The notes beneath the pieces were generated by a model. The model did no database searches, was not told where the DNA came from, and worked only from the letters and a program-made list of their open reading frames with translations. A DNA stretch of 64,000 nt. Source: Diprion similis. Its lineage: Eukaryota; Arthropoda; Insecta; Hymenoptera; Diprionidae. This document shows, piece after piece, positions 8,731 through 64,000 of the stretch. Every line of letters begins with the position of its first letter. Within the stretch, counting starts at the first letter, position 1. The translations under genes and the position numbers were made by a program. The DNA is taken from NCBI RefSeq assembly GCF_021155765.1, contig NC_060106.1:21850031-21914030 (forward strand), read 5' to 3'.

Positions 8731-11700
8731 ATGGAAGCAAACACGTCGGAAATGCGAGAAAAACCATCGGACAAAGGTAATTATCGCATAAGTATGAATC
8801 ACTCACGATTTTTTTTTCACTACAAGTATAAAAGCAAAAGTTCTAATGTGATTAAAATTATTTCAATTACATTATTATCCAGAAGCTTGTGTGTGAACAA
8901 AAAGGTTGGCTAAAAGCAGGATAAACTAACGGAAAAAATTCTGATAGCACTTTAAGGCATATTACCGTTTCTTACCACAGTTTCAATTACGTTACAATTC
9001 ACTATAGTTGATTGTTATACCATTATATTTATTTGTATTTATGCTCATTTTCTTTTGTTATTATTACGGTCTATTGTTTTTATTGTTATTATTTTCAAAC
9101 TATTTTTTTTAATTTTACAGAGGATGGATTCGCTTGGCAGGATTATTTGGATGCTACCAAGAGTTTGGAAGTTCCACAAATCATGTTTCCCCATGTGGAA
9201 CTCGGTCTGCAGAGCGGAATTGAAATTGGAATGTCTCTGGAAGTGCCTCGTTTTCTGGATCCTGATAATGAGCCTGTATACTGGGTCGCCTCTGTTGTGA
9301 TGACATGCGGTCCGCTTCTCAGGCTGCGTTACTTTGGCGGAGATGATAGATCTCTTGAGTTTTGGTGCAATCTGACCAAAGAAGCTGCACACGAATTGGG
9401 CTGGTGTATAAAGAACAACAAGAGACTCGAGCCTCCAGAATTCGTCCTAAAACACTCACCAAATTGTGTCGAACAGTTACCTGAGTTCATGAGCAATGCC
9501 AGATCTGTTCCAATGGAAATGCTGACTGGAGTTAGTAGTTTAAAAAAATATTTTTACTTGTTTCATTATGGAGATTCCATGTAGCAAATTTGGAAGCTTA
9601 TAGTTAAAGTTTACCCCAAATCTACTGCATATGGATCAATAATAACCGAAGAGTAATATTTTGAATCCTTTCAAAGTAATTATATGTTTTCGACCCAATA
9701 TAATCCAATTTTTTCACATTTTACTAGCAGTTTACTTATCAGATTTTAAAATACTTTTACAATTAATCCAATAGAATTCTTTACGAATATTTTTGTCTTA
9801 CATTAATACGAAAGTCACTGAATTTTATTTATACTTCTATTTTGTTTAATTATTTTTTGTTCTCCTAACTGTCTTCAGATTTTAATTCTAATACAATTGG
9901 TGTTCATGTCTGACAGGATGGCCTCAGTATGACTGAAAGAATTAAGCAAGGAACTAAAGTGGAAGCTAGTGATGTGCGGCATCCTTACAAACTTTGGCCA
10001 GCTACGGTAAGATCAATAAATATAATAACAACCTTTTCATGACTTGTGATGCCATTGAATTTTTTCAAATCACAAAACTAGTATGCAATTCAGTTAAAAC
10101 TGCTAAAGACATTGATGAATTTCAGATTATAGAAAACATCGGTGGTCGACTTTTACTGCGATATGATACCCCTGGATCACCCGTTAAAGATTTTTGGGTA
10201 TTCTGCACATCAGAACGTTTGCATTGTAACGGTTTTGTGAAAAATGCAGACTTAAAATGGTTTCTTGAACCACCAAGCTCAATACTAGAATCGCATAGTT
10301 ATGAAGAATGGAAATCTTTGACAGAAACAGTACGGCCGATTCAAGAAATTCAAAATAATTTATTCAATAATATACGTGAACATCCTCGGCATGATTTTGA
10401 AGTTGGTATGAAACTAGAAGCGATATCACCAACGAATAGAGTCGAGATATGCCCAGCAACAGTCGTTAAGGTATTTGATGAAAAATACTTCCTCGTTCAA
10501 GTTGATATCTACGAGGATAGTGCGAGAACAGAAGACTGCAGTGATACGAATGGCGACACATGGCTTTGCACAGCGGATCATCCATACATATTTCCTATTG
10601 AGTGGACAAAGAAAAAAAATATAAGGTGAATGTCAGAAGTTGGATGCAAAGTTCAATATTTGTATAAATATTTGTTTTGTTTCGAATTTGTATCGTTATC
10701 ATTATTTTGAATCCTTAGACTTACTCATCCAATCGGATGGATCTCAAAATCGGAAGAATTTGACTGGGAAGCATATTTAGAAGCAACAAAGTCTGAAGCA
10801 GCACCAGAGTCGTCATTTTCAGAGCGAGAAAGTGCTTTAGATGCTGGATTTGAGGTTGGCATGTATCTGGAAGCAGTAGACCCGGAGAATGAAAACACAC
10901 TTTGCGCTGCACACATAACAAAGGTCGTCGATAATCTATTGTGGATAAAATTGGATAACTACGAAGATTTCCGACCTGAGCACATAGTCTCTATGCATTC
11001 ACTGCAGATATTTCCTGTTGGCTGGTGCGAGTCCAATTCTTACACTTTGAAGCCACCCAAAGACTTTGTCGAAGTATGCAGAAAATTAAGAACACCACCA
11101 AAAGAAACCAAAAAAAATAATATTCTCGACATACCAATATCAGAGCCGAGATCTTCGCTTTGGTGCCCTAAAATATACTTCAATTATCGTTGCTTTACCG
11201 GCCCTATGATATCTAAAGGAAAGCTAGCGACACTGCCAAAAGCAGTCGGCCCTGGGCCGGTCACATTAGTCATGAGAGAGGTTCTATCTATGATAGTTTC
11301 TGTCGGGTACAGGAGTGCCAGGATATTGAAAGTTCTTCAATGCGATTCCAAGCCTGACCCAGGATATCATTTGGAAGTTCTGAAAGCAAAACACAAGAAT
11401 AACACGTACAGAGCTAGCGTTGCTGTTATTACTTCAGGAGACATGGTCCCAAAATTCTGTAGAGATATCTGCAAGAAGTTAATGGTTTGCCCAAACTTAT
11501 TCGGACCTTCCTTTATACCTGAGGATGAGTGCCCAGACAGATGTCATAAAGTTTCGAAAAATAAATTCAGTAAGTTTTTTTTAAATACCTACCGCAGAAT
11601 TTACATTAGATTAAGACGAGTGCTTCGGAGTAATATATGATACAGTAAAACAAATAGATTGTAATAACTACTTGGTTCATTGAAAAGTGCTGTGCAATCA

Positions 11701-13062: not shown

Positions 13063-13486
13063 CAATATTTATTAAACTATTTTTCCACGAATGGTAAATA
13101 CCGCGGATAGATCAAGCAGATAATTTTAAATACCAAATCTCTCAATGTTCTTAAAACTGCTAATTCGTTCCTTGTGAATACTTGGCTTGTTATCGCGAAT
13201 CCCTTTTCCAGAAATCATGTAGGTATTCAGGTCAACATTACCATCTATTTTTGGAATTTTTCGGTACTGAAAAAATTTAAAAATTTCGATGTAATAGACA
13301 TCAATTTATTCAAATCATTTCTCCATCGGTTCTCTATCGGAAGACTAAATTTCTATACAGTGATTCGTCCAGTTAGAACAAATTTCCCTACTTAAAATTA
13401 ACATCCATATTGTTATCAATCATCTAAGATAATTTTTTGTTGACAGAAATTCATCAATTCTGGATATAATTCTATTTATATCATAT

Positions 13487-13487
<1 letters not shown>

Positions 13488-13520
<33 letters not shown>

Positions 13521-13569
13521 ATATGATATATATATATATATATGATATATATATATATATATATATATA

Positions 13570-13620
<51 letters not shown>

Positions 13621-13662
13621 ATATATATATACCTATATGATATATATATATATATATATATT
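13488..13662. repeat. (AT)n microsatellite with interspersed GATATA and ACCTATATGAT units
   Basis: About 175 bp of almost pure AT alternation, broken at intervals by GATATA and by the mirrored words TATAGGTATATA / ATATACCTATATGAT. The tract is close to self-complementary along its whole length and could form cruciforms. Frames through it (Tyr-Ile repeats on both strands) are artefacts. Confidence 0.85.
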
Positions 13663-16784: not shown

Positions 16785-16811
16785 CCCCCCCCCCCCCCCC
16801 CCCCCCCCCCC
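16785..16811. repeat. Poly-C tract (27 C)
   Basis: An uninterrupted homopolymer of 27 cytosines in the Nrg 5' intron. Its true length is uncertain because such tracts are error-prone in sequencing. Confidence 0.85.
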
Positions 16812-17125: not shown

Positions 17126-20100
17126 ATGGGGCGTCTTATACTGTGCTCAATTGCACCCCTGGCACTGACTATTCTACAGGTGTCTGCGCTGAGTGAGTGT
17201 ATTTTTAATTTTCAAGCATTTGACGATGTGGATGGTTGGCGAAATTACAATGTATAATTACCGATGTATGACAAAACTGACCATGAGAATTTAATCTATT
17301 AATACATTATTATTATTATTTTATGTTATAGTCACAATACCGGATGGTACAACAGGTGAAAGAGCTAGCATTACTTAAATCAATGTCTTGTGTGATATGA
17401 TTATTCTTTCTAAACTTGATCATTTTACTCGTTTAATAAGTATATAATTATCAAACTTGTCGGATATGAACCATATTCAAAAAGCGAGTCAAAAAATAAG
17501 TTTTGCCACCTTCCAACTGAATGCTGGTATCGATATACCCGTATGCATGTCTTGTACGCATTTGTTTATTTGCCATTTGTGCTTTTGCCATCCTACATTT
17601 GGCAAGCATTTAATGAAAACTGCACATACTGTCAGAGTACGGGATCCCTTGATCTATTGATCGATTTTATCCCGTAAACAGGTGATATATATCCGGAAAT
17701 ATGTCTTGTGAATATCTGTATAGATACATAATTATGTAATTTGTTTGCATTACTTGAACAGAGAATAGAAAAGCTCATTGAATTATTCAAATGTGCAATA
17801 TTTAACTTAAGTACTGCGTATTTATGCTTGTGAATGCTATCAGTCAATTAATTTATGTTGAATATAGCTGCAAACTTTTTTTTCTGATTACTGTCAAACT
17901 GCAGGAAGTGTAGTCAACTCCATAAATAAATTCTGATAAAGAAAACAGTCATGTTGATTGTCTGCTTTATTTATGACAAATACTTATTAGCATTATTATT
18001 ACAGTACAATCACCGCCAAGAATGGTCAAACAGCCACCAACAGATGAGCTGCTCTTTCAAGTCGCAGTCGCAAAGTTCAATGAAAACGACAGACCGTTTA
18101 TTATAGAATGTGAAGCTACAGGAGAACCCGAGCCCAGGTGAGTCGAAAACTATTGGTATGTTACAGACAAAAAAAAACAAGGGCTTGGAAATTGAGTTCT
18201 TAGGTTTTCAACACAGCATTGAAAATTTTGCCGTTCAAACTATTACTATAGTTTTAATTGTTACGTTACTTTTCCAAATCATGCTGTTTATTTATGGACC
18301 GTTTTCCATTCATATGAAGATACCTTTGAAACTTCAATGTATAATATTTTGGGTTAAACACGTGAAAGCATTCATCAGTGGGGCCTCTGTTGCTTTCCTG
18401 TGTTGTGTACTGAAGCAACTTGGTAGTAGTAATCACTCAACCAGTCTTAATTAATGAGATGGTCTTCAAGTCTGAGGGTCTATGCATTACCACTACTACA
18501 ACAGCTGAAAGTACTTTGCTAGTCATTTAGATTTTACCAGTATGTGTCTTTTTGTGTAAGTTTCATTTCCACTGGTCAGTTTATACTTTCACAGAATGCT
18601 AAATGGCTGTCCTTCTTTTCATCCAGTATATTGGGGGTGAAATTTATTTATCATATCTATATTTTTTATCAATCACTTGTCTTTACACTAAAAGTTGACG
18701 AGTGTCAATGCTTATAATTAGAAGATAGTGACTAAATGTAACACATGATTTGAACCAGATATCGTTGGGAGAAAAACGGTAAACGTTTTGAGTGGCAAGC
18801 GTACGACAATCGAATTTCACAGCAGAATGGTAGAGGAACTTTGGTAATATCGTCTCCACGAGATGAGGACTTGGGCCAGTACCAATGTATGGCAGAGAAC
18901 GAGTGGGGAACTGCGATCTCTAATTCGGTATTTGTGCGGAAAGCAGAGCTAAACTCATTCAAGGACGGACCGCCAAGGACACAAAGTGCAAACGAAGGAG
19001 ATCCCATTAAATTGACTTGCCAACCTCCAGATGGGTGGCCAAAACCAAAAGTCGATTGGCTTATACAGTATACGAGCAGTGGAATAAAGTCTATCAACAA
19101 CTCCAGAATGACTCTGGACCCTGAGGGAAATCTGTGGTTCAGTAATGTGACTAGAAATGATGCTTCGGATGACTTTTATTACACTTGTGCAGCTACCTCT
19201 GTCTTTAAGAACGAATACAAACTGGGTGATCGTATTTTGCTCAATGTTTTGTCAAGCGGGGCATCATCAAACAACAATAAACACGAACCTGTAAAGCAAT
19301 ATGTTTCGAGGAAGAACGAAGTCGCTTTGCTAGGCAAAAAAATTGTAATGTACTGCATATATGGTGGTACACCTCTACCACAAACAGTGTGGAATAAAGA
19401 CGGTCAAGTACTGCAAGCAAACGGCCGAATAACGCAAGGGAATTATGGAAAGTCATTAATCATAAAACATGTGAGCTTTGCGGACGCGGGAACATATACT
19501 TGCGACGTATCCAACGGAGTAGGCGACGCGAAATCATATTCAATAAATCTCAAAGTCGAAGCTATCCCCTATTTCACTCATGAGCCAGAGATTGAAAATA
19601 AGGCGGAAGGTGAGACAGCAATCTTCAGGTGCGAAGCTAGTGGTGTTCCCAAGCCTCAGATCAAGTGGATCCACAACGGAAAGCCTATTGAGGAGGCACC
19701 GCCTAATCCAAGGAGAAAAGTAACTGACAATATGATCATCATTGAGAAATTGGTCAAGAAGGACACTGGAAACTATGGGTGCAACGCGACAAACTCACTG
19801 GGTTACGTTTACAAAGACGTTTATGTCAATGTCCTTGCTATAGCACCACAAATTACCCAGCCACCGTTTAATGAGGCGACCGTCGATGGGAAAACTATTC
19901 GAATTACGTGCCGTGTTTTTGGTGCTCCTAAGCCTGAAGTTAAATGGATCAGAAACGGCATAGAACTCACTGGAGGTAGATACATAACACTGGAATCTGG
20001 AGACCTCGAAATAGATAATGTTAACTTCCTTGATGCTGGGACTTATACATGTTACGCATCCAACAAATTTGGCCATGACAAAGCCTCTGGTAATCTTGTT

Positions 20101-23100
20101 GTGAAAGAACACACGACCATCACTGATGAACCTGAAGATTACGAAGTCGCTGCCGGATCTACAGCAACATTCAGGTGCGTTATTTTCATATTAAAAAAAC
20201 AAATGGTCCACATTTCTTCTCAACTAGTCTAGAAGTTTCTGTTATTTTATTATATTCCAGTATTACAGTGTTTGGGTTAAATATTTGAATTCAACTTTAT
20301 TGCAGTTTTTAGTTTAAACTAATCTAATCCGTGTTCCAGATGTAACGCTGTGACAGATTCAAGTTTGACACTGACCATTGACTGGCTGAGAAATGGAGAG
20401 GAGCTAGATTTCGACAAGGAGCAAAGGTTTATTAGGAGCACCGATTATTCATTGACTATTACAAAGACGACAGAATTAGATTCTGCAATATACACGTGTG
20501 TTGCTCGCACAGAGCTAGATGAAACAAAAGCTCAAGCAACATTGACAGTTCAAGATGTGCCAAACGCACCTCGTTTAGAGGGAGTACAGTGCAGAAAAGA
20601 CGAAGCCAATGTCCATTGGGTCCCTATGGGTGACAACAGAACTCCCATCCTGCGATACACCATCCAATCCAACACCAGTTTTACACCTGATACATGGGAG
20701 GTTGCTAAGGACGATGTTCCGGCCACAGAGCAAACCCACGTCGTCCCAATGACGCCGTGGGCGAATTACACATTCCGTGTTTTAGCATGGAATAAAATAG
20801 GTAGGTATTTGAATAATTTTACCATTGTTGTGAAGTATTGGATGAGCTGAATCTTAATCGAGCTTTACCACACCACAGGGGTGTCGTTACCATCATCACG
20901 AAGCGAGGTTTGCACCACTCAGCCAGATGTACCTTATAAGAATCCAGACAATGTTGAAGGCAAGGGAACGGACCCGCAGAACATTGTCATTACGTGGACC
21001 GTGATGCCTCAGATAGAGCACAATGCGCCAAAGTTCATGTACCGAGTGTTCTATAAGCGCGATATAACGGGTGAAGAATGGACAACTGAAGATGTATTAG
21101 ACTGGAAAGTACACCGGCTTCAGATCGATAATCAGCCAACCTATCAGCGATATAAGATCAAAGTCGTGGCTATTAATGAGGAAGGAGAGTGTAGACAACA
21201 GCCAACTGAGGTCATAGGCTACTCAGGCGAAGACGGTAATTATTGATACTCAGTGTAACAAAATTGAAACTAATGAATCATGTAAAAACCTGCATCATTA
21301 TACTTTTTGTGTACAGTTTGACCATTACTTGTCTTTTTTTACTTACACAGTACCACAGCAAGCACCTGGGAACTTTACCTTGGTTAAAATAAAGGGAAGT
21401 ACGAGTGCTATTCTTTCCTGGAACGCTGTTTCTGACGAGTCCATTAGGGGAGAGTTCAAAGGATATAAAATTCAAACATGGACCGACAGAGATGGCGAAG
21501 AAGGGATGCGCGAAATTCATGTAAAGAATGATACAACCAAGACTCTCGTTTCCAAATTTGTTCCATACAGCAAAAACTACGTTAGGATTCTTGCGTATAA
21601 TGGCAGGTGCGAATTAGCAAGATTATTAAGTTTATTAACTGGTACAGAAAAGTGAAGAAATAATAATAATATTAATAACGGAAACTTTGATTTCGTCAAA
21701 TTTTTCTCAACAGATACAATGGTCCGTCTTCAGAGATACTGAACTTTGACACACCTGAAGGACTTCCAGGCACGGTTCAGGCTTTGGATGGCTTTCCTTT
21801 GGGATCTAGTGCATTATATTTGGTCTGGAAAAAACCAGAAAGACCTAACGGCATTCTCATTGGATATAAAATTTACTATCATGTTGTTGACGGTACAAGC
21901 GTTGGGCCTTTGTTAGAGAGAAAACCACACGTTACAAACCCAGAAGTGACCAGAGTCAAACTGGCTGGATTAGAACCAAATACTAAGTACAGGATTCACA
22001 TTCGGGCCATTACCAAGGCTGGGGAGGGTGAAGAGTGAGTAAAATGAATAAATTCTCTGTTTATCTCTGTTTCAATAGATTTAATAAATTCAATCTTAAA
22101 ATCATCTTGCAGCTATTACATAGAGCGTACGACGGGTAGTGCACTGCGATCTGCTCCAGAGGTGCCACACTTCACATGGGACCGTATACCCACAGACAAC
22201 GGGCTTGCAACCATTAGAGTTACTTGGCTTCCAAGTCGAGAAGGAAATCCAGGCAGTCACTTCTATGTTAAATACAAGCTCAAGGGAGAGACTATTGATG
22301 CCAGAACGCTGGACGAAATCAACAGCGACAGCACAGAGGTGCCAAAAATTTAAAATTGAATGCATGCACATATTCCAATTATGCTCCAGCTAATTGATAA
22401 TACCTATTACCTTCTTTCGCCTTTTACCTATAAATTTTCAGCGATTTGATTTTAATCATTGTTTGCTTATTGTGATGCAGATACGAGGCCTTTTGAGAGA
22501 AAAAGTTTATGTTATGTCTGTTGTCGCCATGGATGGAGATTTCTGGGCAGAAAGTTTGCCACAGGAAGTTGATACCAGCGGAGAAGGTCCGTATATTCAA
22601 CCCAACGAAACCGTTGCCACTGCCGGATGGTTCATAGGTGAGAGGGACATTCCAGTAATACAATAGAATGACGAATGGAAATAAATTTTGTCACAATTAC
22701 GTCTCATCTGAGATCTAAGAAATGCAACAAAATACCGAGAAAGTGCGTGGACTTGAACATATCAAAGATGGTATACTTATTGCTTTCGATTCAACCTTTT
22801 GTATTCCGCCCCTTAGGAATGATGCTGGCTATTGCATTCCTATTGCTACTGCTGATAATCGTGTGTGTAATAAAACGTAATCGAGGTGGAAAATATGCCG
22901 TACACGAGAGAGAACTGGCGGCAGGTCGTGGCGATTATCCCGAAGAGGGTGGCGGTTTTCATGAATATTCACAGCCCCTAGATACTAAGTCTGCAGGAGG
23001 TCGTGCCTCGCTCGCTTCTTCCTCGCACCAGGACGGAAAACATCCGGAGTCTGACACCGACTCGATGGCCGAATACGGAGAAGGAGATACGGGTCAGTTG

Positions 23101-33700: not shown

Positions 33701-35506
33701 TGTGCTATCCCAACTGTATGAATGGTGGAAACTGCACTGCACCTGGAGTTTGTTCCTGTCCACCAGGTTTTCAAGGACCTTATTGTGAAGGAGGTAACAC
33801 TACTGATATTACAAGATTGTAATGGAAAGGGTAGCGCAGAATTTCTAGCCCAATATGAAACTGTTATTCAATCAATCGAGGTTTATGAAAACATATTATT
33901 TTATTATTCAACATTTGTACAAGGATAAATTATTTACAGAAAAGCATTGTGGCGTAGCTAAGTTTGGATAAAGTATTGCAATCATTGAAAATTTCTTAAT
34001 TGTAAGTAAAACAAAGTCTAGCGCTGGGGATGTCTTTGAAGCAAAGTAGCTGTATAGGATCAATGCGTAGGTAATGTTTAGCAAATGAAAATCAGCAATA
34101 TCAGCTTCGAATGGAGTTGAGTACAATTACAAGCTTGCAGTGATATTGGTTACATTGAATCATTCTCATTTTCTGTGGTTTAACTAGGATCGATCGAAGT
34201 AGTAAAACTCATTTTACGATTCAAGTCACATGCTATAATTACGAAATTCACAAGCTCGATTTAAATGACTTTTGATATCGTTATAGCAGTTTTGCATCCT
34301 GCTTTAATAACGTTTGTCAAAGCTTGATAAAACGGTGCCTGTTCAGCACCATGATCAATTCCAGTATCGTGATGTTCCTGCTCTTCATCACGGAACTTTT
34401 GTATTGTATCCAATAACTCTTTGTCTACGTTTTCGTCATTACTGTCCATTAAAGATCGCAGCTGCTCGTTATAGTGCTCAACGATCACAGTCTCCACTGC
34501 TACAGTACAGGCCATTGCTGCCTTTGGTCCCATCAATGCTGTCCCAGCACCCAAAACGAATCCAGCTACATTCCAAAACGGAACAAGAACCGTCGGTCTT
34601 ACACGGTGCTTCCTGATTAATTCTTCAAACTTTTTGCGGTGTCGTTTTTCCTGATCCCACATATGTTGTATAGTCGGCCCCACTGATGATTTACCTGCAA
34701 AAAAAAAACCATCAGTTTCAAGCAAGTTTGCTCAATAAATAGAAGTTGGCACGGTATTGACATTGATTTGACCGCATCGGCAAAGATGATGGGTTCGGAG
34801 AATTATGAAGTCATAACTTATTGAATTGCATAGCAAACCTAAGACAGCCATTTGTCCTGCGTATATTCGGTCTGCTCCAAGTTCGCCAGCATGATCCACT
34901 CGTATAATAGCATCCAACGTTTTCCCAGCTTTGGTATTAGACGTTGCAGAAGAAGCTGTGCTCGCCAAGCGGCGGCTACTCAGGCGCAACATGTTGATTA
35001 AGAATTCTGAAAGAAAAACTAGAATACGAATAAAATTATTCCAACTCCCAAAACTAAAATAATAATTCTTTCAATTATTTACAGGTATTTGCACAGAGAA
35101 ATGCTTAAATGGAGGTAAATGTGTGCAAAAGGATACCTGTGAGTGCCCCAGGGGATACTTTGGTCTTCGTTGTGAATTTTGTAAGTACAATATAAATTCC
35201 TTGATTGACTTTTAAGCAGTATTGACAATTTTTTTTTCCCATAAATTTTGTTCAGTTACGAATGTTATTTATTTGACAGCAAAATGCGTGATTCCTTGTG
35301 TAAACGGTGGAAAATGTAAGGGAAACAATATGTGCCGTTGTCCGGCCGGATTCAAGGGTAATCATTGCGAGATTGGGAGAAGATCACCGCAGAGGTCGGC
35401 GTGTACGAGACCTTGTCGTAATGGTTCGTGCCAGCCAGACAACACATGTCAGTGTGAACCTGGGTGGTTTGGGAAATTATGTAACAAGAATAAGCCATGG
35501 GCTTGA
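30799..35506 (+). CDS. shf: Shifted, secreted WIF1-family protein (351 aa)
   Basis: Extracellular protein that in Drosophila helps lipid-modified Hedgehog spread through the matrix; the vertebrate homologue WIF1 binds Wnt. Exons 30799-30949, 31873-32115, 32851-32892, 33020-33163, 33641-33793, 35085-35180, 35280-35506 (1056 nt). Signal peptide ([18 protein letters not shown]); WIF domain about residues 35-190, beginning [15 protein letters not shown] and containing [20 protein letters not shown] and [17 protein letters not shown]. Then EGF repeats: [12 protein letters not shown]…[40 protein letters not shown]. The first EGF is only a C-terminal half ([11 protein letters not shown]). The exon 32851-32892 adds a short charged insert inside the WIF domain that the fly protein lacks. 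COQ7 is nested on the other strand in intron 33794-35084. Confidence 0.95.
34261..34992 (-). CDS. COQ7: COQ7, 5-demethoxyubiquinone hydroxylase, mitochondrial (195 aa)
   Basis: Di-iron enzyme that hydroxylates demethoxyubiquinone, the penultimate step of ubiquinone synthesis, at the matrix side of the inner mitochondrial membrane. Minus-strand exons 34839-34992 and 34261-34694, joined in phase 1. Arg/Ser-rich presequence ([15 protein letters not shown]), then the family start [20 protein letters not shown]. Iron ligands are present in both repeats: the Glu of HAGELGA, EKRH, the Glu/His of [10 protein letters not shown], and EEQEHHD near the C-terminus. Length and layout match COQ7/clk-1. The whole gene lies inside the fifth shf intron (33794-35084) on the opposite strand, so the two transcripts overlap. 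Confidence 0.95.
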
Positions 35507-39574: not shown

Positions 39575-42500
39575 ATGGTGTCGCTGCCTAGCGCAGAATC
39601 CGGAGCTTTGGACCGAATGGACCGGCTCTCGGACGAAGACGATGATGAGCCAACTAGTGGATCTGAGACGTATGAGGAGGGGGATCTTTTGTCGGCTGCA
39701 ATGGACGATGATGTTACCGCCCAGCTCGCCGCTGCAGGTTGGCAAAACAAACACGCTAATGGTGATTTCCATTTTTTTGCTTTTCCGACTTTTGAATTAC
39801 CAACTCGCGATTCTAATCTTTTAATGAACGTTTTATTCGATTGTCCAAACTTTGATCGTTGCAGGGTGCTTTCTCTGCGTCAGAGTAAAAGTCTAACATT
39901 CATAGTTATGTATTACAAACCTCATACTCATTGTCAGTAAAATTCTTGCAGCTTTGTATAGGATTTATTATCTTTTACTCGTTGTTATTTTTATACTATG
40001 CGTATTTCTGCAACTGTAGAAAAAACTATCAATAATCAAATATTATAATATGCATTTATGCATTTGTTTATATGATTTAAACCAGCTCTAGACTTCAGAT
40101 TTTTGAAACGCAAATCGTACATACACACACATATATCTGTCTGTAATTTTTGAAACAAGTTCCCCTATTCAGTCTGTCAATTCTTATTTTTTATCATATT
40201 TTAAAGAATTTAATCCAAATACCAATTTCGATTTTGCTATTATTGATAGCAAAACGTATTTTGTTCGTTGTAAAATTTGACTATTACTCTGATGAGAGAC
40301 ACCCTGTGCAATAGTACGTGTCCGAGGGAAGTACAAGTAACTTGGTAATTATTGTTTATCACTATATTACAACATTATATCTTAAATTATGATTTACATG
40401 TATTAAATATTTATTCTTATTAGTAGGAGGTAAATTTTTTGTCTGCATTAGATTATTTCAGTTTCAAATCATGTCGAGATACAGATATTGATGAATCACG
40501 TTTTTTTTATATCCTGCAAATATAAGCGAAAAGTAATTCAAATGGTACAGAACCTATATTGGCGTAGTATTTATTGGAACAAATTTTTCTTTTGTATTCT
40601 TACTTATTATTCACCATAGTTGATTGTATTATATTATTGTTTTGCGTCGTTTTTGTGCTGCTACTTCTTAATGCTTGAATTCTAGAATATGGAAAATCTC
40701 TAACGAATAACCTGATCACTATTGTTCGTATTAATCTTCTGAATCACTAATGTCACAGTGAATTGACAATCTCGTGAGCTCATTATCGAATACTCAATGA
40801 TTGTTTGAAAAATGTCAACAAAAATTGATCCGTTTCTAGTAAATGCTAAGTATTAAGCTACAGAGAAGAGAAACGATTCAAATTTTTGATAAAATTTATT
40901 TACGTGTACAAAGGCATGATTGTCATTAATATTTAACGTGAAGAGGATCAATGATATTTTTAATTTCGGTGAGATGTTCATCGGTGACACTCTTCCATGC
41001 AAGATTATCCTGTATTTTGTGTGAAATGCACAGAAGTGTTGTTCTCTAATGTTGCTTGTGCGTGTAATTTATGGTACAAAGTACACACGTGTGTTTTGTG
41101 TTTTAATGCATTTAATTATTCAACGTTGTATTAGCACAATATTGCCTTTATTTCAAGATCGGACCATTCTGTATTTAGAATTCCATTCTAATGAAGCCAT
41201 TTTCAATTTTCATTATAAATATTAATGTATTTGTGAATTGACAACGCAAGAAATGTCAGATATTTATTTTCTCTTTTCGGAAATAGATTTGAAAATATGT
41301 CAGTAAAATCGCTAAAATTTATATTTGGTCTTCAATGGCAATATTTGACTAGCACAACCTGTCCATTCTCATATTAGAGGGATTGAACAGTATCTGATAA
41401 TGAGTGTACCTAGGGCCCGTCGGGGTTGCTGCGGCCGCTGCCATCGTTTCAGCCAAGAAGCGAAAACGGCCTCATAGTTTTGAGACTAATCCCAGTACTC
41501 GTAAACGACAGCAAAATAGGCTTCTGCGAAAACTCAGGGTGAGTACAGAAATGCTATATCAACAAATTCTTGAAATATTAATAGGCTTCAACTTTAACAT
41601 TTGTTTTCACTAAAATTTTGCAGACTGAGGAAATCATGATAGTTGATTGTTAATTATACATTTCCTTACTTTTCAGCAAACGATTGACGAATTTGCAACG
41701 CGCGTTGGACAGCAAGCTGTTGTTCTTGTGGCGACACCTGGTAAGCCTAACAGCAGCTACAGAGTTTTTGGTGCCAAACCGCTGGAGGATGTTGTTAAGA
41801 ACCTTAGAAGTATGGTAATGGAAGAACTGGAGAGCGCATTGGCCCAGCAAGCACCACCCCCTGTACAAGAGGACCCGTCTCTATACGAACTACCACCACT
41901 AATAATAGACGGCATACCTACACCTGTTGAAAAAATGACCCAGGCCCAGCTTAGGGCGTTTATACCTTTGATGCTGAAGTATTCTACAGGCAGAGGCAAG
42001 CCTGGCTGGGGGCGCGAAAGTACTCGACCGCCTTGGTGGCCTGAAGAATTACCTTGGGCCAATGTTCGCATGGATGCTCGATCCGAAGACGAGAAACAAA
42101 AGGTTGGTGAATGGGATATTGCAGAGGAAAGAGAAAAGATAGTGGACTACAAATCTCGTTACGCATAATTATCTTAGAAACATTCTGAATCAGAGATTAT
42201 TTTTTCACTTCTACTATCTGCTGAATTTGAAGTAATAGGAACAGAAAACTATGCCAATTGATATTTTTTTATCAATCATTGTTTCATTGATATACTTCTA
42301 TATATATATTACAGATCTCTTGGACACACGCATTGAGGCAAATCGTGATAAACTGCTACAAGTTTCACGGCCGAGAGGATCTATTACCAGCGTTCAGCGA
42401 AGAAGATGACAAGACGACAATTTTGATTCAGCAACAAACGCCGCACTCTTCCTCGCATCAGTCACATGCTTCTAACCAAGGCCAAGGAAGCCAGTCAGGA

Positions 42501-49888: not shown

Positions 49889-50831
49889 TTAGTGGATATC
49901 GTAGACTGATTGAAGGGCCAACTCTGGCTTGTCGTATCCCAATTCCTCAGGTGTGTTGATACCCAGCTCCTCCAATGTGGGCTTAATGTTTTCAAGTAGA
50001 TACGGATAAATCTCTCCCACTTTGGGTCCACATTTTTCCTTTACAGATTCTAGATATCTTACAGCTAGGGCAAAATCGTTGAGCCTTCGGCAAGCCCTTA
50101 ACGCAGCACAGATGATCCTTGGCTCAGGGACGAGATCCATACCTGAAAAACGATTGTGAATATGAATTTTTTGGAGACAGTGAATCGGTAAAGTGTTTTT
50201 TTTCTGATTATTAAATACCACTCCGCAATTTACCATCTGCATTAGAAACCTTGCAAAATTGCAATACATGAAGGATAAGTTTGGATCATTTCGAAGTACG
50301 AAAATTCTTGCATTTCAGACGAAGAATTGAATAAGACTTCAATCTGGGACCATAAAATCATTACTGGACCAATCTTTTCAGTTCGGAAAGCTTTCGATTT
50401 TTTCATCAAGGACCCGAACGGAGCGCATTTCGTTTTGCATTCGGTAGGATTAACAGGTTAGTACCATTACCCTTGTTTTCATGTAGTTTTTGTGTGGCGA
50501 AAAAATAAAAGTAGAGGTTCGAAGGTCTCGACAGTCAATTGCGACGAGTTACACAACGCTTTCAACCGTTCTAGATGCGATTACCGATAACTAAGAGATT
50601 AAGAAGTATACAAGTATTGTTACCAGCGAGATCGTTCATCGCCTTTCGAATTTCCCATGCATCTATGTCCGGGCGGTTGAAGAAGGCCTCGTATCTGGCA
50701 TCGAACTCCTCGTCGGATTCCTGAGGACCGCCATGGGAGGCACGACTGTTTTGAAGACCAACAGTCGCTGCCCGAGGGATGAGCGAGCTCCTCATCGCCG
50801 AAGCAACGCGGCCAGCCACAATTCGCAGCAT
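49889..50831 (-). CDS. COX5A: Cytochrome c oxidase subunit 5A, mitochondrial (153 aa)
   Basis: Nuclear-encoded matrix-side structural subunit of complex IV. Two minus-strand exons, 50624-50831 and 49889-50142, joined in phase 1 (462 nt). The first ~40 residues are a basic presequence ([20 protein letters not shown]). The mature part has the family words [66 protein letters not shown] and the end [20 protein letters not shown]. The length matches the family. Head-to-head with p47, with 1.25 kb between the start codons; convergent with ewg. Confidence 0.97.
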
Positions 50832-55762: not shown

Positions 55763-57184
55763 TCACTTGCTGATTGAGCTTTGTCTGGTCATGTATTGTT
55801 TGAAAATTGGTGCATTTAATATATTTTCGGCAAATTTTGAAATCGATCTATCATTTGTATAGCTCATTTCATTTTCTGAATTTGAACAGTACTGATAATG
55901 ATTTACATTGATCAAGTCTGCACCAGATGAAATATACTTATCAATATCAATATTGTCTGTGATCCAAGTTTTGTCCGGTTTGCTAATAAAAACGTGACGA
56001 TTTTTCATGCTACCCTCGGAAAACCGGCGGGTTTTTTCGAAAATCATTAGTGTGGTGTTTCCAGTTTGATAATAGTTCTCTTGTTGGGTACAAAACAATA
56101 ATGTATCCAAACGATAGTGATCACTAGCTAATAAGCCTTTCTCAAAATCTATTAATAAGTCTGCCAGAGTATGATGATACTTTAAAACGATATATTCTTC
56201 CCAGTACAAAGTTATGCTATATTTAACTTTATTGTATGAACGATAAAGACAGTCCCGTTCAGCAATTTCCCCAGAAATGCTCGGAGAAATTCTAGTATAG
56301 GGAAAATTCCATGGTACAACAGTGAATGTGACATTAAGCCCTTGGCTATTCATTATTTGTTTCATAGTATCAGTAAATATACTTGGAATACCATAATCGT
56401 AAACGATAAAATGGTCAACTCCAATCATCTGATGAAAATTTAAGAAGGTCATCATATCCATACGAGAAATAGATCTGTTTAATGGCGGAGCTATGCATAT
56501 GGCTATATCATTCGTTATGTGATTATGTGGTAAATTTTGCACACTTAAAATTGGATATTCACTTTCAAATACGTCCCTCTTATTGAAAAAAGACACGCCT
56601 TCAGGAATACCAGGCTGCGAATATTCGCAGATGAAGTTGTAAGCGGCATACTCTAAATTTTGCGTGGATTGGCTTTCGAGTGAGTTGGTAATTCTTGAAT
56701 GCTTAAATATCCCCAGAACACGCTGTTCCACCCCTTGGATAAATACATGGCAATTTATGTTTGAAATGGTATATGTTTTGCCGAATGCGATCCCTCGGAC
56801 TTCATTTGTGTTTGCATGGTAAGCTGCGTAAACAAACAAGTCATCGTTTATTCTTTGCCAAGACGGAAGTGGTACGTCGAACTGGAGATGAAGGTTTTCA
56901 GAGACATCAATCCCTCCTAAGCGGTTGATATCAGGATCTTTAGCTCCTCGATTACCAAAGAAGCTTATCACTTCGAGGACGTATCGCAGTTTGTTGTATT
57001 CATGTCTATAGAACAGTAGTGACACCACACTCACCAGAGCTGTGATAAATAATGCCGCTTGATAATATTTTCTCATGCTGCTGTTATTGGGACGATTTGT
57101 AATTATTATAATCGGTGCAGGACGTATGGTACCACAATTATGTCTCAGATGGGCCTGTGCGACATCAAACCCATTTTTTATCAT
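55763..57184 (-). CDS. Glycosyltransferase family 92 (DUF23) type II membrane protein (473 aa)
   Basis: Family 92 enzymes are Golgi glycosyltransferases, including beta-1,4-galactosyltransferases acting on N-glycan core fucose in worms. The coding part is a single exon. A short N-terminal cytosolic stretch is followed by one membrane segment (AALFITALVSVVSLLFY, about residues 41-57) and a lumenal domain. The GT92 region spans about residues 215-420, with MMTFLNFHQMIGVDHFIVYD, then AERDCLYRSYNKVKYSITLY and EEYIVLKYHHTLADLLIDFE, the place where the family normally has a D-x-D-E-F motif. Start: ATG at 57184, just after a splice acceptor (CTTCTTCCCCAG ending at 57203), or ATG at 57076, which leaves only about five residues before the membrane segment. 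The upstream exons 57279-57330 and 57674 onward seem to be its leader. Confidence 0.8.
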   Translation of the reverse strand: MIKNGFDVAQAHLRHNCGTIRPAPIIIITNRPNNSSMRKYYQAALFITALVSVVSLLFYRHEYNKLRYVLEVISFFGNRGAKDPDINRLGGIDVSENLHLQFDVPLPSWQRINDDLFVYAAYHANTNEVRGIAFGKTYTISNINCHVFIQGVEQRVLGIFKHSRITNSLESQSTQNLEYAAYNFICEYSQPGIPEGVSFFNKRDVFESEYPILSVQNLPHNHITNDIAICIAPPLNRSISRMDMMTFLNFHQMIGVDHFIVYDYGIPSIFTDTMKQIMNSQGLNVTFTVVPWNFPYTRISPSISGEIAERDCLYRSYNKVKYSITLYWEEYIVLKYHHTLADLLIDFEKGLLASDHYRLDTLLFCTQQENYYQTGNTTLMIFEKTRRFSEGSMKNRHVFISKPDKTWITDNIDIDKYISSGADLINVNHYQYCSNSENEMSYTNDRSISKFAENILNAPIFKQYMTRQSSISK

Positions 57185-57278
57185 ACTAATTTGGTTATCA
57201 CCCTGGGGAAGAAGATGTATGGTGTAGGTAATCACATGTTTATTGTTGTCGATGTGAAATGAATAGTTCAAAGCTTAC

Positions 57279-57835: not shown

Positions 57836-58008
57836 CTGCACTAAATACCTCACTGTCCGGCTAACTAGATTTCGTTCCAAATCAAATTATGACTTTGATT
57901 CTATAGCAATACACCTCTGCAAGATACCGTGTAATAATGTGATGTATGATATTGTATTGTCACTATTTCATGTAACCTGGATTGGGATGAATAAAAAATC
58001 AATTTTCT

Positions 58009-58632
58009 CCGCATTTTCTTTAAATTTATTCCTCAGCAGTTGATTTCGCTGATCCAGATGCCTTCTTCAGAATCCTGAGAGACCCCTTCGTTTGGTCCGG
58101 AGAGGGTCATGCTATTCGAATCTTGGATGAAAGTTTTTTGTCCTAAAAAACAGTCGGGCAAACCCCTTTGCATTTTCGGTGAAAAAAAATGCTGTAAACG
58201 ATTCGTTACTGCACTATTCCGACGTAATTTTGCAAGAAAAATCGATGAACATCGAAGTTACAGCCAAACATCTGAAGACTGCCTTTCGACGTTGTTCTGC
58301 TGCTGGTCATTCCTTCGTTATTGCTCTGCCGTTCGTCCTACGGTCTTTTTGGTGTGTTTTCTGCGTTCCTGGAAGTGCATTTCGTAAGAGAAGGGCCATA
58401 CGAATCGATTCCAAGACCAAAAGTTTTTCGCTCAAGAAAAAACCCAGGCCCTATGCATTTTTAACGAAAATTTCAGCGATTTTTGAAAGAGCTGCAAATA
58501 ATTCTATAAGGCTCTATTCCGACGTAATTTTGCGGGAGAAATCGATTGGGCGCAGTCCCAATACGCTGCGAGCAACGCCTGAGGAGTTACAGGCGAAAAA
58601 CTGCTTATTTTCGTCCTCATTTCTCTGCTGTT
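58009..58632. repeat. Divergent edge copies of the 312-bp satellite (about two monomers)
   Basis: The period of the main array extends leftwards for two more units, with decreasing similarity. In 58321-58632 the right half is nearly canonical (CGCAGTCCCAATACGCTGCG) and the left half is altered. In 58009-58320 only patches remain (CACTATTCCGACGTAATTTTG, AGGGTCAT, AAACCCCTTTG). The start of the array is therefore fuzzy, somewhere near 58000-58080. Decay towards the edge is usual for satellite arrays. Confidence 0.8.
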
Positions 58633-61600
58633 GGTCCTAGGCTCTCTTTCGTGTGATTTTTGAGTTCCTGGGGGTCGATTTACTTCGGAAAGGGTCATAC
58701 AAATCGATTCCAGAACGAAAAATTTTCGGCTCCGGAAATGAGGAAAAAACTAAGGCTAACCCCTTTGGATTTTTGGCCAAAATTTCGAAGAGTTTGAAAA
58801 GTGCTGCGATTAATTCTTTGAGGCACTATTCCGACGTAATTTTGCGAGGGGAATCGATTGAGCGCAGTCCCAATACGCTGCGAGCAGCGCCTGAGAAGTT
58901 ACAGGCAAAAAACTGCTGATTTTCGTCCTCATTTCTCTGTTGTTGGTCCTAGGCTCTGTTTCGTGTGATTTTTGAGTTCCTGGGGGTCGATTTACTTCGG
59001 AAAGGGTCATACAAATCGATTCCAGAACGAAAAATTTTCGGCTCCGGAAATGAGGAAAAAACTAAGGCTAACCCCTTTGGATTTTTGGCCAAAATTTCGA
59101 AGAGTTTGAAAAGTGCTGCGATTAATTTTTGAAGGCACTATTCCGACGTAATTTTGCGAGAGGAATCGATTAAGCGCAGTCCCAATACGCTGCGAGCAAC
59201 GCCTGAGGAGTTACAGGCGAAAAACTGCTTCTATTCGTCCTCATTTCTCTGCTGTTGGTCCTAGGCTCTTTTTCGTGTGATTTTTGAGTTCCTGGGGGTC
59301 GATTTACTGCGGAAAGGGTCATACAAATCGATTCCAGAACGAAAAATTTTCGGCTCCGGAAATGAGGAAAAAACTGAGGCTAACCCCTTTGGATTTTTGG
59401 CCAAAATTTCGAAGAGTTTGAAAAGTGCTGCGATTAATTTTTGAAGGCACTATTCCGACGTAATTTTGCGAGAGAAATCGATTAAGCGCAGTCCCAATAC
59501 GCTGCGAGCAACGCCTGAGGAGTTACAGGTGAAAAACTGCTTATTTTCGTCCTCATTTCTCTGCTGTTGGTCCTAGGCTCTTTTTCGTGTGATTTTTGAG
59601 TTCCTGGGGGTCGATTTACTTCGAAAAGGGTCATACAAATCGATTCCAGAACGAAAAATTTTCGGCTCCGGAAATGAGGAAAAAACTAAGGCTAACCCCT
59701 TTGGATTTTTGGCCAAAATTTCGAAGAGTTTGAAAAGTGCTGCGATTAATTCTTTGAGGCACTATTCCGACGTAATTTTGCGAGGGGAATCGATTGAGCG
59801 CAGTCCCAATACGCTGCGAGCAGCGCCTGAGAAGTTACAGGCAAAAAACTGCTGATTTTCGTCCTCATTTCTCTGCTGTTGGTCCTAGGCTCTCTTTCGT
59901 GTGATTTTTGAGTTCCTGGGGGTCGATTTACTTCGGAAAGGGTCATACAAATCGATTCCAGAACGAAAAATTTTCGGCTCCGGAAATGAGGAAAAAACTA
60001 AGGCTAACCCCTTTGGATTTTTGGCCAAAATTTCGAAGAGTTTGAAAAGTGCTGCGATTAATTTTTGAAGGCACTATTCCGACGTAATTTTGCGAGAGGA
60101 ATCGATTAAGCGCAGTCCCAATACGCTGCGAGCAACGCCTGAGGAGTTACAGGCGAAAAACTGCTTCTATTCGTCCTCATTTCTCTGCTGTTGGTCCTAG
60201 GCTCTTTTTCGTGTGATTTTTGAGTTCCTGGGGGTCGATTTACTTCGAAAAGGGTCATACAAATCGATTCCAGAACGAAAAATTTTCGGCTCCGGAAATG
60301 AGGAAAAAACTAAGGCTAACCCCTTTGGATTTTTGGCCAAAATTTCGAAGAGTTTGAAAAGTGCTGCAATTCATTCTTTGAGGCACTATTCCGACGTAAT
60401 TTTGCGAGAGGAATCGATTGAGCGCAGTCCCAATACGCTGCGAGCAGCGCCTGAGAAGTTACAGGCAAAAAACTGCTGATTTTCGTCCTCATTTCTCTGC
60501 TGTTGGTCCTAGGCTCTCTTTCGTGTGATTTTTGAGTTCCTGGGGGTCGATTTACTTCGGAAAGGGTCATACAAATCGATTCCAGAACAAAAAATTTTCG
60601 GCTCCGGAAATGAGGAAAAAACTAAGGCTAACCCCTTTGGATTTTTGGCTAAAATTTCGAAGAGTTTGAAAAGTGCTGCGATTAATTTTTGAAGGCACTA
60701 TTCCGACGTAATTTTGCGAGAGGAATCGATTAAGCGCAGTCCCAATACGCTACGAGCAACGCCTGAGGAGTTACAGGCGAAAAACTGCTTATTTTCGTCC
60801 TCATTTCTCTGCTGTCGGTCCTAGGCTCTTTTTCGTGTGATTTTTGAGTTCCTGGGGGTCGATTTACTTCGGAAAGGGTCATACAAATCGATTCCAGAAC
60901 GAAAAATTTTCGGCTCCGGAAATGAGGAAAAAACTAAGGCTAACCCCTTTGGATTTTTGGCCAAAATTTCGAAGAGTTTGAAAAGTGCTGCGATTAATTT
61001 TTGAAGGCACTATTCCGACGTAATTTTGCGAGAGGAATCGATTAGGCGCAGTCCCAATACGCTGCGAGCAACGCCTGAGGAGTTACAGGCGAAAAACTGC
61101 TTCTATTCGTGCTCATTTCTCTGCTGTTGGTCCTAGGCTCTTTTTCGTGTGATTTTTGAGTTCCTGGGGGTCGATTTACTGCGGAAAGGGTCATACAAAT
61201 CGATTCCAGAACGAAAAATTTTCGGCTCCGGAAATGAGGAAAAAACTAAGGCTAACCCCTTTGGATTTTTGGCCAAAATTTCGAAGAGTTTGAAAAGTGC
61301 TGCGATTAATTTTTGAAGGCACTATTCCGACGTAATTTTGCGAGAGAAATCGATTAAGCGCAGTCCCAATACGCTGCGAGCAACGCCTGAGGAGTTACAG
61401 GCGGAAAACTGCTTATTTTCGTCCTCATTTCTCTGCTGTTGGTCCTAGGCTCTTTTTCGTGTGATTTTTGAGTTCCTGGGGGTCGATTTACTTCGAAAAG
61501 GGTCATACAAATCGATTCCAGAACGAAAAATTTTCGGCTCCGGAAATGAGGAAAAAACTAAGGCTAACCCCTTTGGATTTTTGGCCAAAATTTCGAAGAG

Positions 61601-64000
61601 TTTGAAAAGTGCTGCGATTAATTCTTTGAGGCACTATTCCGACGTAATTTTGCGAGGGGAATCGATTGAGCGCAGTCCCAATACGCTGCGAGCAGCGCCT
61701 GAGAAGTTACAGGCAAAAAACTGCTGATTTTCGTCCTCATTTCTCTGCTGTTGGTCCTAGGCTCTCTTTCGTGTGATTTTTGAGTTCCTGGGGGTCGATT
61801 TACTTCGGAAAGGGTCATACAAATCGATTCCAGAACGAAAAATTTTCGGCTCCGGAAATGAGGAAAAAACTAAGGCTAACCCCTTTGGATTTTTGGCTAA
61901 AATTTCGAAGAGTTTGAAAAGTGCTGCGATTAATTTTTGAAGGCACTATTCCGACGTAATTTTGCAAGAGGAATCGATTAAGCGCAGTCCCAATACGCTA
62001 CGAGCAACGCCTGAGGAGTTACAGGCGAAAAACTGCTTATTTTCGTCCTCATTTCTCTGCTGTCGGTCCTAGGCTCTTTTTCGTGTGATTTTTGAGTTCC
62101 TGGGGGTCGATTTACTTCGGAAAGGGTCATACAAATCGATTCCAGAACGAAAAATTTTCGGCTCCGGAAATGAGGAAAAAACTAAGGCTGACCCCTTTGG
62201 ATTTTTGGCCAAAATTTCGAAGAGTTTGAAAAGTGCTGCGATTAATTTTTGAAGGCACTATTCCGACGTAATTTTGCGAGAGGAATCGATTAAGCGCAGT
62301 CCCAATACGCTGCGAGCAACGCCTGAGGAGTGACAGGCGGAAAACTGCTTATTTTCGTCCTCATTTCTCTGCTGTTGGTCCTAGGCTCTCTTTCGTGTGA
62401 TTTTTGAGTTCCTGGGGGTCGATTTACTTCGGAAAGGGTCATACAAATCGATTCCAGAACGAAAAATTTTCGGCTCCGGAAATGAGGAAAAAACTAAGGC
62501 TAACCCCTTTGGATTTTTGGCCAAAATTTCGAAGAGTTTGAAAAGTGCTGCGATTAATTTTTGAAGGCACTATTCCGACGTAATTTTGCGAGAGGAATCG
62601 ATTAAGCGCAGTCCCAATACGCTACGAGCAACGCCTGAGGAGTTACAGGCGAAAAACTGCTTATTTTCGTCCTCATTTCTCTGCTGTCGGTCCTAGGCTC
62701 TTTTTCGTGTGATTTTTGAGTTCCTGGGGGTCGATTTACTTCGGAAAGGGTCATACAAATCGATTCCAGAACGAAAAATTTTCGGCTCCGGAAATGAGGA
62801 AAAAACTAAGGCTGACCCCTTTGGATTTTTGGCCAAAATTTCGAAGAGTTTGAAAAGTGCTGCGATTAATTTTTGAAGGCACTATTCCGACGTAATTTTG
62901 CGAGAGAAATCGATTAAGCGCAGTCCCAATACGCTGCGAGCAACGCCTGAGGAGTTACAGGCGGAAAACTGCTTATTTTCGTCCTCATTTCTCTGCTGTT
63001 GGTCCTAGGCTCTCTTTCGTGTGATTTTTGAGTTCCTGGGGGTCGATTTACTTCGGAAAGGGTCATACAAATCGATTCCAGAACGAAAAATTTTCGGCTC
63101 CGGAAATGAGGAAAAAACTAAGGCTAACCCCTTTGGATTTTTGGCCAAAATTTCGAAGAGTTTGAAAAGTGCTGCGATTAATTTTTGAAGGCACTATTCC
63201 GACGTAATTTTGCGAGAGGAATCGATTAAGCGCAGTCCCAATACGCTGCGAGCAACGCCTGAGGAGTTACAGGCGAAAAACTGCTTCTATTCGTGCTCAT
63301 TTCTCTGCTGTTGGTCCTAGGCTCTTTTTCGTGTGATTTTTGAGTTCCTGGGGGTCGATTTACTGCGGAAAGAGTCATACAAATCGATTCCAGAACGAAA
63401 AATTTTCGGCTCCGGAAATGAGGAAAAAACTAAGGCTAACCCCTTTGGATTTTTGGCCAAAATTTCGAAGAGTTTGAAAAGTGCTGCGATTAATTTTTGA
63501 AGGCACTATTCCGACGTAATTTTGCGAGAGAAATCGATTAAGCGCAGTCCCAATACGCTGCGAGCAACGCCTGAGGAGTTACAGGCGGAAAACTGCTTAT
63601 TTTCGTCCTCATTTCTCTGCTGTTGGTCCTAGGCTCTTTTTCGTGTGATTTTTGAGTTCCTGGGGGTCGATTTACTTCGAAAAGGGTCATACAAATCGAT
63701 TCCAGAACGAAAAATTTTCGGCTCCGGAAATGAGGAAAAAACTAAGGCTAACCCCTTTGGATTTTTGGCCAAAATTTCGAAGAGTTTGAAAAGTGCTGCG
63801 ATTAATTCTTTGAGGCACTATTCCGACGTAATTTTGCGAGGGGAATCGATTAAGCGCAGTCCCAATACGCTGCGAGCAGCGCCTGAGAAGTTACAGGCAA
63901 AAAACTGCTGATTTTCGTCCTCATTTCTCTGCTGTTGGTCCTAGGCTCTCTTTCGTGTGATTTTTGAGTTCCTGGGGGTCGATTTACTTCGGAAAGGGTC
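58633..64000. repeat. Tandem satellite array, 312-bp monomer, 17 complete copies plus a partial one, open to the right
   Basis: Using GGTCCTAGGCTC as the start of a unit, copies begin at 58633, 58945, 59257, 59569, 59881, 60193, 60505, 60817, 61129, 61441, 61753, 62065, 62377, 62689, 63001, 63313, 63625 and 63937. Every spacing is exactly 312 bp, so no net indel has accumulated. Copies differ by scattered substitutions that sort them into a few classes, and the order of the classes repeats (see findings). Monomer landmarks: GGGGGTCGATTTACTTCGG, GAACGAAAAATTTTCGGCTC, GGATTTTTGGCCAAAATTTC, CTATTCCGACGTAATTTTGC, CCCAATACGCTGCGAGCA. The 88-codon frames found in some copies are by-products of the repeat. 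The array reaches the window edge, so its full size is unknown. Confidence 0.97.

Follow-up and report, generated by a model that had tools for sequence, protein, structure and literature searches.

A block-duplicated 312-bp satellite array among genes of Diprion similis and its dispersed, spacer-linked family

The 312-bp tandem repeat at the right-hand end of the window (the whole stretch of 64,000 nucleotides of Diprion similis DNA that was analysed) is a short satellite array among genes, in which duplication acted on blocks of monomers. It probably belongs to an ancient, dispersed, non-coding composite satellite that spread to many places and was re-amplified locally in blocks. A block-duplicated dispersed satellite is a type of repeat already known.

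TRF reports one array of period 312, with 17.7 copies and 96% matches, that starts at position 58482 and reaches the window end. Identity at lag 312 is 0.91 across 58001-64000; other lags tried from 300 to 324 give 0.22-0.34. The homogenised part of the array in the window (58633..64000, forward strand) holds exactly 17 complete monomers followed by 64 bases; each monomer is 312 bp long, as the first-pass annotation had counted them, and 21 of their 31 variable columns are informative. The array runs past the window end to 73157 (window numbering), reaching a total of 47 full-length monomers and about 15 kb. The first of the 47 has decayed to 80%, and the 46 monomer spacings are 312 in 43 instances and 299, 311 and 313 once each. 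At the left edge lie a decayed monomer (58254..58632, forward strand), 80% identical to the array consensus over 58335-58632, and a strongly decayed one (58008..58248, forward strand) in which blastn detects only the block 191-229, at 90%. The array is flanked by a gene on either side. An ORF of 502 amino acids with a GT92 domain (55763..57271, reverse strand), which is context outside the satellite and the closest gene found, has its 5' end 0.7 kb from the first decayed monomer; on the other side, ORFs belonging to a dynein heavy chain gene lie about 13 kb beyond the array end. The observed/expected CpG ratio is 1.1.

This long head-to-tail array, non-coding and of a high-copy family, has the properties of satellite DNA. 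No open frame was found in the monomer: each of the six frames holds two to seven stops per monomer, which rules out a coding tandem repeat. A dimer of a shorter unit is also ruled out, the consensus matching itself at no more than 33% (lag 150) when shifted by about half its length, as is a structured RNA, the window having neither a tRNA nor an Rfam match at gathering score. Conservation within the monomer is highest at consensus positions 194-247 (first complete instance at 58826..58879, forward strand), a stretch that gave p = 0.026 in a conservation test on 11 arrays; eight C1 arrays found via a monomer motif, the short loci L057, L059, L061 and L064, which had no usable copies, and monomer copies below 74% identity were excluded from it. 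Such a stretch may leave room for a selected function. Literature searches returned no paper for short monomer strings and no 312 bp satellite DNA of Hymenoptera, and a search for an insect 312 bp monomer led only to toads and a bivalve; these results do not show the satellite to be unpublished.

Linked markers sort the 17 monomers into five classes that run A B C A B A D B C A D E D E B C A along the array, in letter-for-letter agreement with the first-pass reading when that reader's own markers are used. The B-C-A trimer indeed occurs three times on the forward strand, at 58945..59880, 60817..61752 and 63001..63936, and D-E twice in tandem at 61753..63000 (forward strand), all assigned by class markers. 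Among 100,000 shuffles of the 17 class letters, 0.016% had at least three BCA, 0.28% had a DEDE run and none had both, frequencies that flatter the block order because the classes were picked after looking. The proposed class-specificity of the C and E markers gave way at two of them: GAGAGAAATCG, assigned to C, recurs in monomer 14 (E), and GGCGGAAAAC, assigned to E, recurs in monomers 9 and 16 (C). These crossings indicate that classes C and E are close relatives. A further variant, CTTCGAAAAGG, had been attributed to the A copies that follow C; this holds for three of its four carriers (A copies 4, 6, 10 and 17), copy 6 coming after B.

Block duplication extends over the whole array. None of the 45 interior monomers has an adjacent copy as its nearest relative, the opposite of an array in which neighbours are always closest, and this bears out the earlier suggestion that duplication acted on blocks rather than on single monomers. 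The nearest relative is most often six monomers away (16 of 45), and six is also the strongest of the 24 lags tested, with 1 of 2000 permutations as low (uncorrected for the number of lags). Successive monomers match at one difference or fewer over runs of up to six, the maximum in 1000 order shuffles being four. The unit that stands out most clearly is the hexamer E-B-C-A-A-D, of which BCA and DE are parts. Its first copy spans 62689-64560 (in-window part 62689..64000, forward strand), and a tandem second copy, outside the window at 64561-66432, differs from it at 1 of 1872 bases. Blocks of monomers are therefore more alike than the neighbours within a block, as in a higher-order repeat. It is very improbable that this order is an assembly artefact, by collapse or misjoin: tandem arrays are prone to such errors, but the contig continues from the array into genes in either direction and has TTAGG at its end, and a collapse would delete a near-identical tandem duplication of 1872 bp rather than produce one.

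The array studied here (C2a) was compared with three others of the family, C2b, which lies 150 kb away, C4 and C8. Clear higher-order order is present in three of the four, each with a pattern of its own: C2b is ordered at lags 2, 17 and 19 (also 4) and C4 at lags 3, 6 and 7 (also 9 and 10). C8 has little order, lags 2 and 8 giving p 0.02-0.03 uncorrected and the run test falling within shuffles. Class A is private to C2a, the 15 places that match its 46-mer at one mismatch or fewer all being in this array. In a tree of 140 monomers, clades unite 46/46 monomers of C2a (support 0.76), 31/31 of C2b (1.0) and 28/28 of C8 (0.96); those of C4 form no clade. The arrays nearest to C2a among the four compared sit on other contigs, the differences per 312 being 21.3 for C2a-C8, 21.8 for C2a-C4 and 50.0 for C2a-C2b. 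Decayed monomers are found at all six array edges seen, and the two arrays with both ends seen are 9 and 15 kb long.

The family is abundant and scattered. A monomer 28-mer has 21,620 + 20,362 = 41,982 matches at two mismatches or fewer (control 0), and 17,795 matches are exact. Among the matches listed and the loci studied, monomers occur on at least ten contigs (C1-C4, C6-C10, C12), and the matches listed place C1 arrays at 0.97, 1.18, 2.92, 9.92 and 10.35 Mb. Such places on several contigs, with nearby genes examined at C2a only, are those of a dispersed euchromatic satellite. The block pattern had been described as typical of centromeric or pericentromeric satellites, and C2a could in principle be an outlier of such a family, its order reflecting centromeric amplification. 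The great abundance of the family fits this, as does the higher-order order described for primate centromeric alpha satellite (PMC8122249), and a large centromeric array may exist elsewhere, the places known being those among the matches listed. We nevertheless hold a centromeric origin to be unlikely and do not retain the earlier description, since C2a measures only about 15 kb, lies among genes and stops 0.86 Mb short of the contig terminus, where TTAGG fills the final 3 kb, and since the family is scattered over several C1 arrays and other contigs among the matches listed. The 9-base core of the CENP-B box was matched at best at 6/9 bases in the array consensus, which says little, since the box is known from mammals.

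The composite nature of the satellite is indicated by a spacer linked to the monomers. A partial copy, comprising its 3' part ('b') with AATAAAAAATCAATTTTC near the 3' end, lies at 57906..58058 (forward strand) beside C2a; the spacer is conserved and precedes monomers at other loci. The spacer 3' end is accompanied by a monomer-profile match in fixed orientation at 9/9 loci (L041-L049). Among 12 further spacer copies, nine have a monomer at most 400 bases away, all on the same strand, compared with 0/512 control windows; the match at L055 is weak (12 bits), and L058, L062 and L063 lack a monomer over that distance. With blastn on ten spacer loci, L047 had no monomer and the nearest at L046 was about 850 bp off, only the profile finding a close one. 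Weak minus-strand hits are seen upstream at L047. The monomer match starts at 277-294 in 8/14 spacer-to-monomer boundaries and elsewhere in 6/14, either through decay or since the junction is not unique. The spacer is at least about 450-500 bp long, the left end of its profile having been cut by hand. Its 32-base core has 11 matches at three mismatches or fewer, so the spacer is diverged and, as detected, far rarer than the monomer. On C10, seven spacer matches are spaced by 2165, 4958, 2479, 4958, 5272 and 2793, each of which agrees to within 2 bases with 607 + n x 312 (n 5-7) or with a pair of such units; the 607 was fitted from one of these spacings, and the unit is deduced from spacing alone. 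Repeat 'X' (>700 bp), upstream of the spacers at L043 and L044, was rejected as part of the unit: it is a separate repeat with 135 first-look candidates genome-wide, and 4/4 other copies had no spacer or monomer within 1 kb downstream.

Spacer and array could together be a mobile element carrying tandem repeats, an improbable explanation in our assessment. HINE elements insert into T-rich sites without duplication. The nearest known analogue, Cg_HINE of the oyster, comprises non-autonomous Helentrons with satellite-like arrays of mostly two or three monomers (PMC7492417), and has a similar look: arrays dispersed in the genome, each with a conserved flank. Of the two HINE features scored, one, the constant orientation of flank and repeat, was found at 9/9 loci and at the 9/9 matches among the 12 further copies, with order also kept, and two genome searches gave tens of dispersed spacer candidates (62 and 82). 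The other feature, sub-terminal inverted repeats in the left and right flanks, was looked for in ten spacer copies with hand-cut left ends; no terminal inverted match is common to these ten, six having none and four having different ones of 12-17 bases. Three right flanks share spacer and monomer sequence only, with no separate right end; the longest stop-free stretches in spacer copies are of 54-103 amino acids. Compared with Cg_HINE (PMC7492417), the present arrays are longer, and monomers flank the spacer on both sides in nine regions.

We privilege the dispersed composite satellite. Its ancestral unit would have consisted of the spacer followed by 312-bp monomers in fixed orientation. Composite copies sit at many places, some among genes, where monomers beside or between spacer copies would re-amplify locally through unequal crossing over or gene conversion, unequal exchange being the presumed mechanism; the blocks involved comprise 2 to 6 monomers in the arrays tested. 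Such local growth would yield short arrays with decayed edges whose variants and higher-order patterns are their own. Spread from place to place crosses chromosomes, most likely as copied array pieces carried by putative extrachromosomal circles or by template jumps. No selected function would be needed.

Known systems share parts of this picture. In Drosophila, the 1.688 euchromatic satellites form short arrays among genes, with array-specific variants, and are concentrated on the X. The present family likewise forms short one-family arrays among genes with array-specific variants, whereas it extends over the ten or more contigs given above. The TCAST1-10 satellites of Tribolium castaneum are dispersed euchromatic and mostly single repeats that do not generally cluster by place (PMC5844308). 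They resemble our family in monomers of a few hundred bp spread over chromosome arms, partly near genes; unlike them, arrays of tens of monomers cluster here by array (3/4 tested) and a spacer accompanies them. As in primate alpha satellite (PMC8122249), diverged monomers were amplified as blocks whose copies are far closer than the neighbours inside; unlike it, the arrays here are short, not centromeric as far as seen, and without a CENP-B box.

Most work on higher-order arrays concerns centromeres, and there selection, size and difficulties of assembly obscure what is seen. In the present genome, small assembled arrays of a single family sit on different contigs with their own block patterns and variants, and a common spacer anchors their descent. 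Such arrays would allow direct study of how block amplification begins and of how satellite pieces pass between chromosomes. More tentatively, spacer and monomers may be one transmissible module, a 'seed' dispersed as a whole through the genome, and from each seed a higher-order array would grow anew and independently among genes. Were this possibility true, the genome would be a set of many replicate experiments on the start of higher-order satellites outside centromeres.

A single 312-bp tandem array, placed by TRF from 58482 to the end of the window, is found in this part of the assembly (C2:21850031-21914030; 269 Mb in 60 contigs in all). From the start chosen in the first-pass annotation it comprises 17 complete monomers, each 312 bp long, with 31 variable columns. 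The linked-variant markers proposed there for classes A to E return the same letters throughout, but they are not exclusive for C and E, which have markers in common. The variant CTTCGAAAAGG, attributed to A copies that follow C, has four A carriers, three of which fit this description and one of which does not. Shuffles of the 17 class letters yield three B-C-A trimers in 0.016% of trials and D-E-D-E in 0.28%; the classes having been defined on inspection of the sequence, tests on raw distances are to be preferred.

Reading of the next 170 kb shows that the array, C2a, stops at 73157 (window numbering continued) after 47 full-length monomers, the first of which is decayed (80%), followed by a partial one. 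With x for a monomer without class, the order is x A B C A B A D B C A D E D E B C A A D E B C A A D for monomers 1-26 and B C B A D C (A) B C A B (A/C/D) B A B A x B A D x for monomers 27-47. A neighbour is among the nearest relatives for 0 of the 45 interior monomers, shuffled orders averaging 3.8 (p 0.048), and distance 6 is the most frequent nearest-relative spacing (16/45). At lag 6 the mean difference is 8.3 versus 11.0 by permutation, with 1 permutation in 2000 as low; lags 5 and 12 are also low, at p 0.03 uncorrected for the 24 lags tested. Monomers 15-20 (62689-64560) and 21-26 (64561-66432) differ at one position in 1872 bases, the monomers preceding them at 2/312 and those following at 6/312. 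Order, lag and hexamer comparisons thus establish that the B-C-A and D-E blocks first noted are real, and a tandem duplication of hexamer E-B-C-A-A-D, spanning the window's end, stands out as the clearest recent event.

Arrays on contigs C8 and C4 were located by monomer search, and a second array of C2 (C2b, ~150 kb off) by reading onward along that contig. The order test is low at lags 2, 17 and 19, and also 4, in C2b; at 3, 6 and 7, and also 9 and 10, in C4; and weakly so at 2 and 8 in C8, whose longest run is no greater than in shuffles. For a 46-base class-A marker, the 11 exact matches and the 4 with a single mismatch all fall within C2a; at ≤3 mismatches there are 194 + 383 matches and, among those listed, the ones with more than one mismatch lie outside C2a. 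Mean differences per 312 bases from C2a are 21.3 to C8, 21.8 to C4 and 50.0 to C2b. The tree of array consensuses unites C2a, C4 and C8 (support 0.999). The tree of single monomers resolves C2a, C2b and C8 as clades, but not C4. The differing lags, private class A, distances and trees therefore indicate that arrays evolve largely as units; in this small sample their relatedness tracks neither distance nor chromosome. Two arrays of C1 are a length variant of the family, a 304-bp spacing replacing 312 in 4/5 spacings at C1:9923100-9925100 and in 4/7 at C1:2924400-2927400.

The left edge of C2a contains non-monomer sequence, a conserved spacer with a partial copy at 57906-58058. The segment 57700-58080 has 40 genomic matches, its own copy counted, among 62 candidates. 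At eight of nine other spacer loci blastn detects either an array or a decayed monomer to the same side (~850 bp away at one of them), and at L047 no monomer beside the spacer; a monomer profile finds monomer sequence at the spacer 3' end in all nine. A spacer profile built from these loci, its left end trimmed by hand, places the 3' part at the left edge of C2a and the 5' part at the right; spacer also flanks C8 on both sides and, at the one edge read of each, C4 on the right and C2b on the left. It is absent from the array cores read, though C10 may differ. The match starts at monomer position 277-294 in 8 of 14 spacer-to-monomer boundaries and elsewhere in six, and monomer sequence stops shortly before the spacer in nine regions. 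Independently, the 400 bases downstream of 12 further spacer copies hold monomer in nine cases, all on the same strand (weakly at L055), and none at L058, L062 and L063; control windows, taken where the 234 kb of sequence read hold no array, give 0/512. At C10:19559097-19581832 lie seven equal-score spacer matches whose spacings agree to within 2 bases with one or two units of 607 + n x 312, where the value 607 was itself derived by fitting one of the spacings. This stretch of C10 may therefore be a composite higher-order array, with a predicted unit of one spacer and 5-7 monomers. Across ten spacer copies with hand-trimmed left ends there is no long reading frame, and the ends share no inverted match. 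A different dispersed repeat, itself diverged, occupies L043:226-962 and L044:1-712, beside a spacer in each case, and has 135 first-look candidates across the genome, mostly with 70-76% identity to the query.

Within the monomer, conservation varies among windows in 11 arrays not picked by motif (variance p 0.022), and the best conserved 30-base stretch begins at position 194 (98.2% majority, p 0.026 versus column shuffles). In the left-edge C2a copy blastn detects monomer 191-229 alone, at 90%, which is this same stretch. These comparisons are suggestive only of a possible constraint.

At ≤2 mismatches a monomer 28-mer matches 21,620 times on the forward strand and 20,362 times on the reverse, and its reversed control not at all; exact matches number 17,795. 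One monomer per match would amount to ~13 Mb, or 4.9% of the assembly; within the sequence read, 139 of the 220 matches taken at ≤4 mismatches are exact copies of the 28-mer. Among the matches listed, monomer sequence occurs on C1, C2, C3, C4, C6, C7, C8, C9, C10 and C12, and spacer alone on C11. The last 3 kb of C2 (C2:22780664-22783663) are filled by TTAGG repeats (99% matches), as are 2 kb at the start of C1 (C1:1-2000).

The multi-monomer amplification had been read in the first-pass annotation as typical of centromeric or pericentromeric satellites. A centromeric reading is unsupported at the C2a site, which stands between an ORF with a GT92 domain on its left and, ~13 kb to its right, two dynein heavy chain ORFs (86402-90612) adjoined by a 1519-aa ORF at 81767; that the family as a whole is a centromeric satellite seems unlikely. 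Eight of 10 ORFs right of C2a for which a family was sought have none. Elsewhere in the window, ORFs have release factor (6035-6946), MBT/SLED (10861-11640), Ig (18841-20232; best solved relative neurofascin), COQ7 (34261-34725), Nrf1 DNA-binding (41647-42168) and COX5A (49889-50269) domains. A (TA)n tract covers 189 bases at 13473-13661 (91.5 copies, 86% matches), and a run of 27 C lies at 16785-16811 amid 40% GC.

The 312-bp satellite is tandem, non-coding and scattered; its block patterns are private, and a spacer is linked to it. We privilege as probable the explanation of a scattered, spacer-linked satellite undergoing local block amplification, with confidence slightly tempered by the hand-set left end of the spacer and by the distance to the gene on the right. 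Within arrays, unequal exchange would proceed by blocks of monomers; between chromosomes, pieces of arrays may make rare jumps. One account reports circles of Tribolium freemani satellites and proposes them as a route of spread (PMC13081366), and another proposes mobile-element carriage of satellite arrays in oyster (PMC7492417). Circles may likewise have spread the 312-bp satellite, and mobile-element carriage of it seems unlikely.
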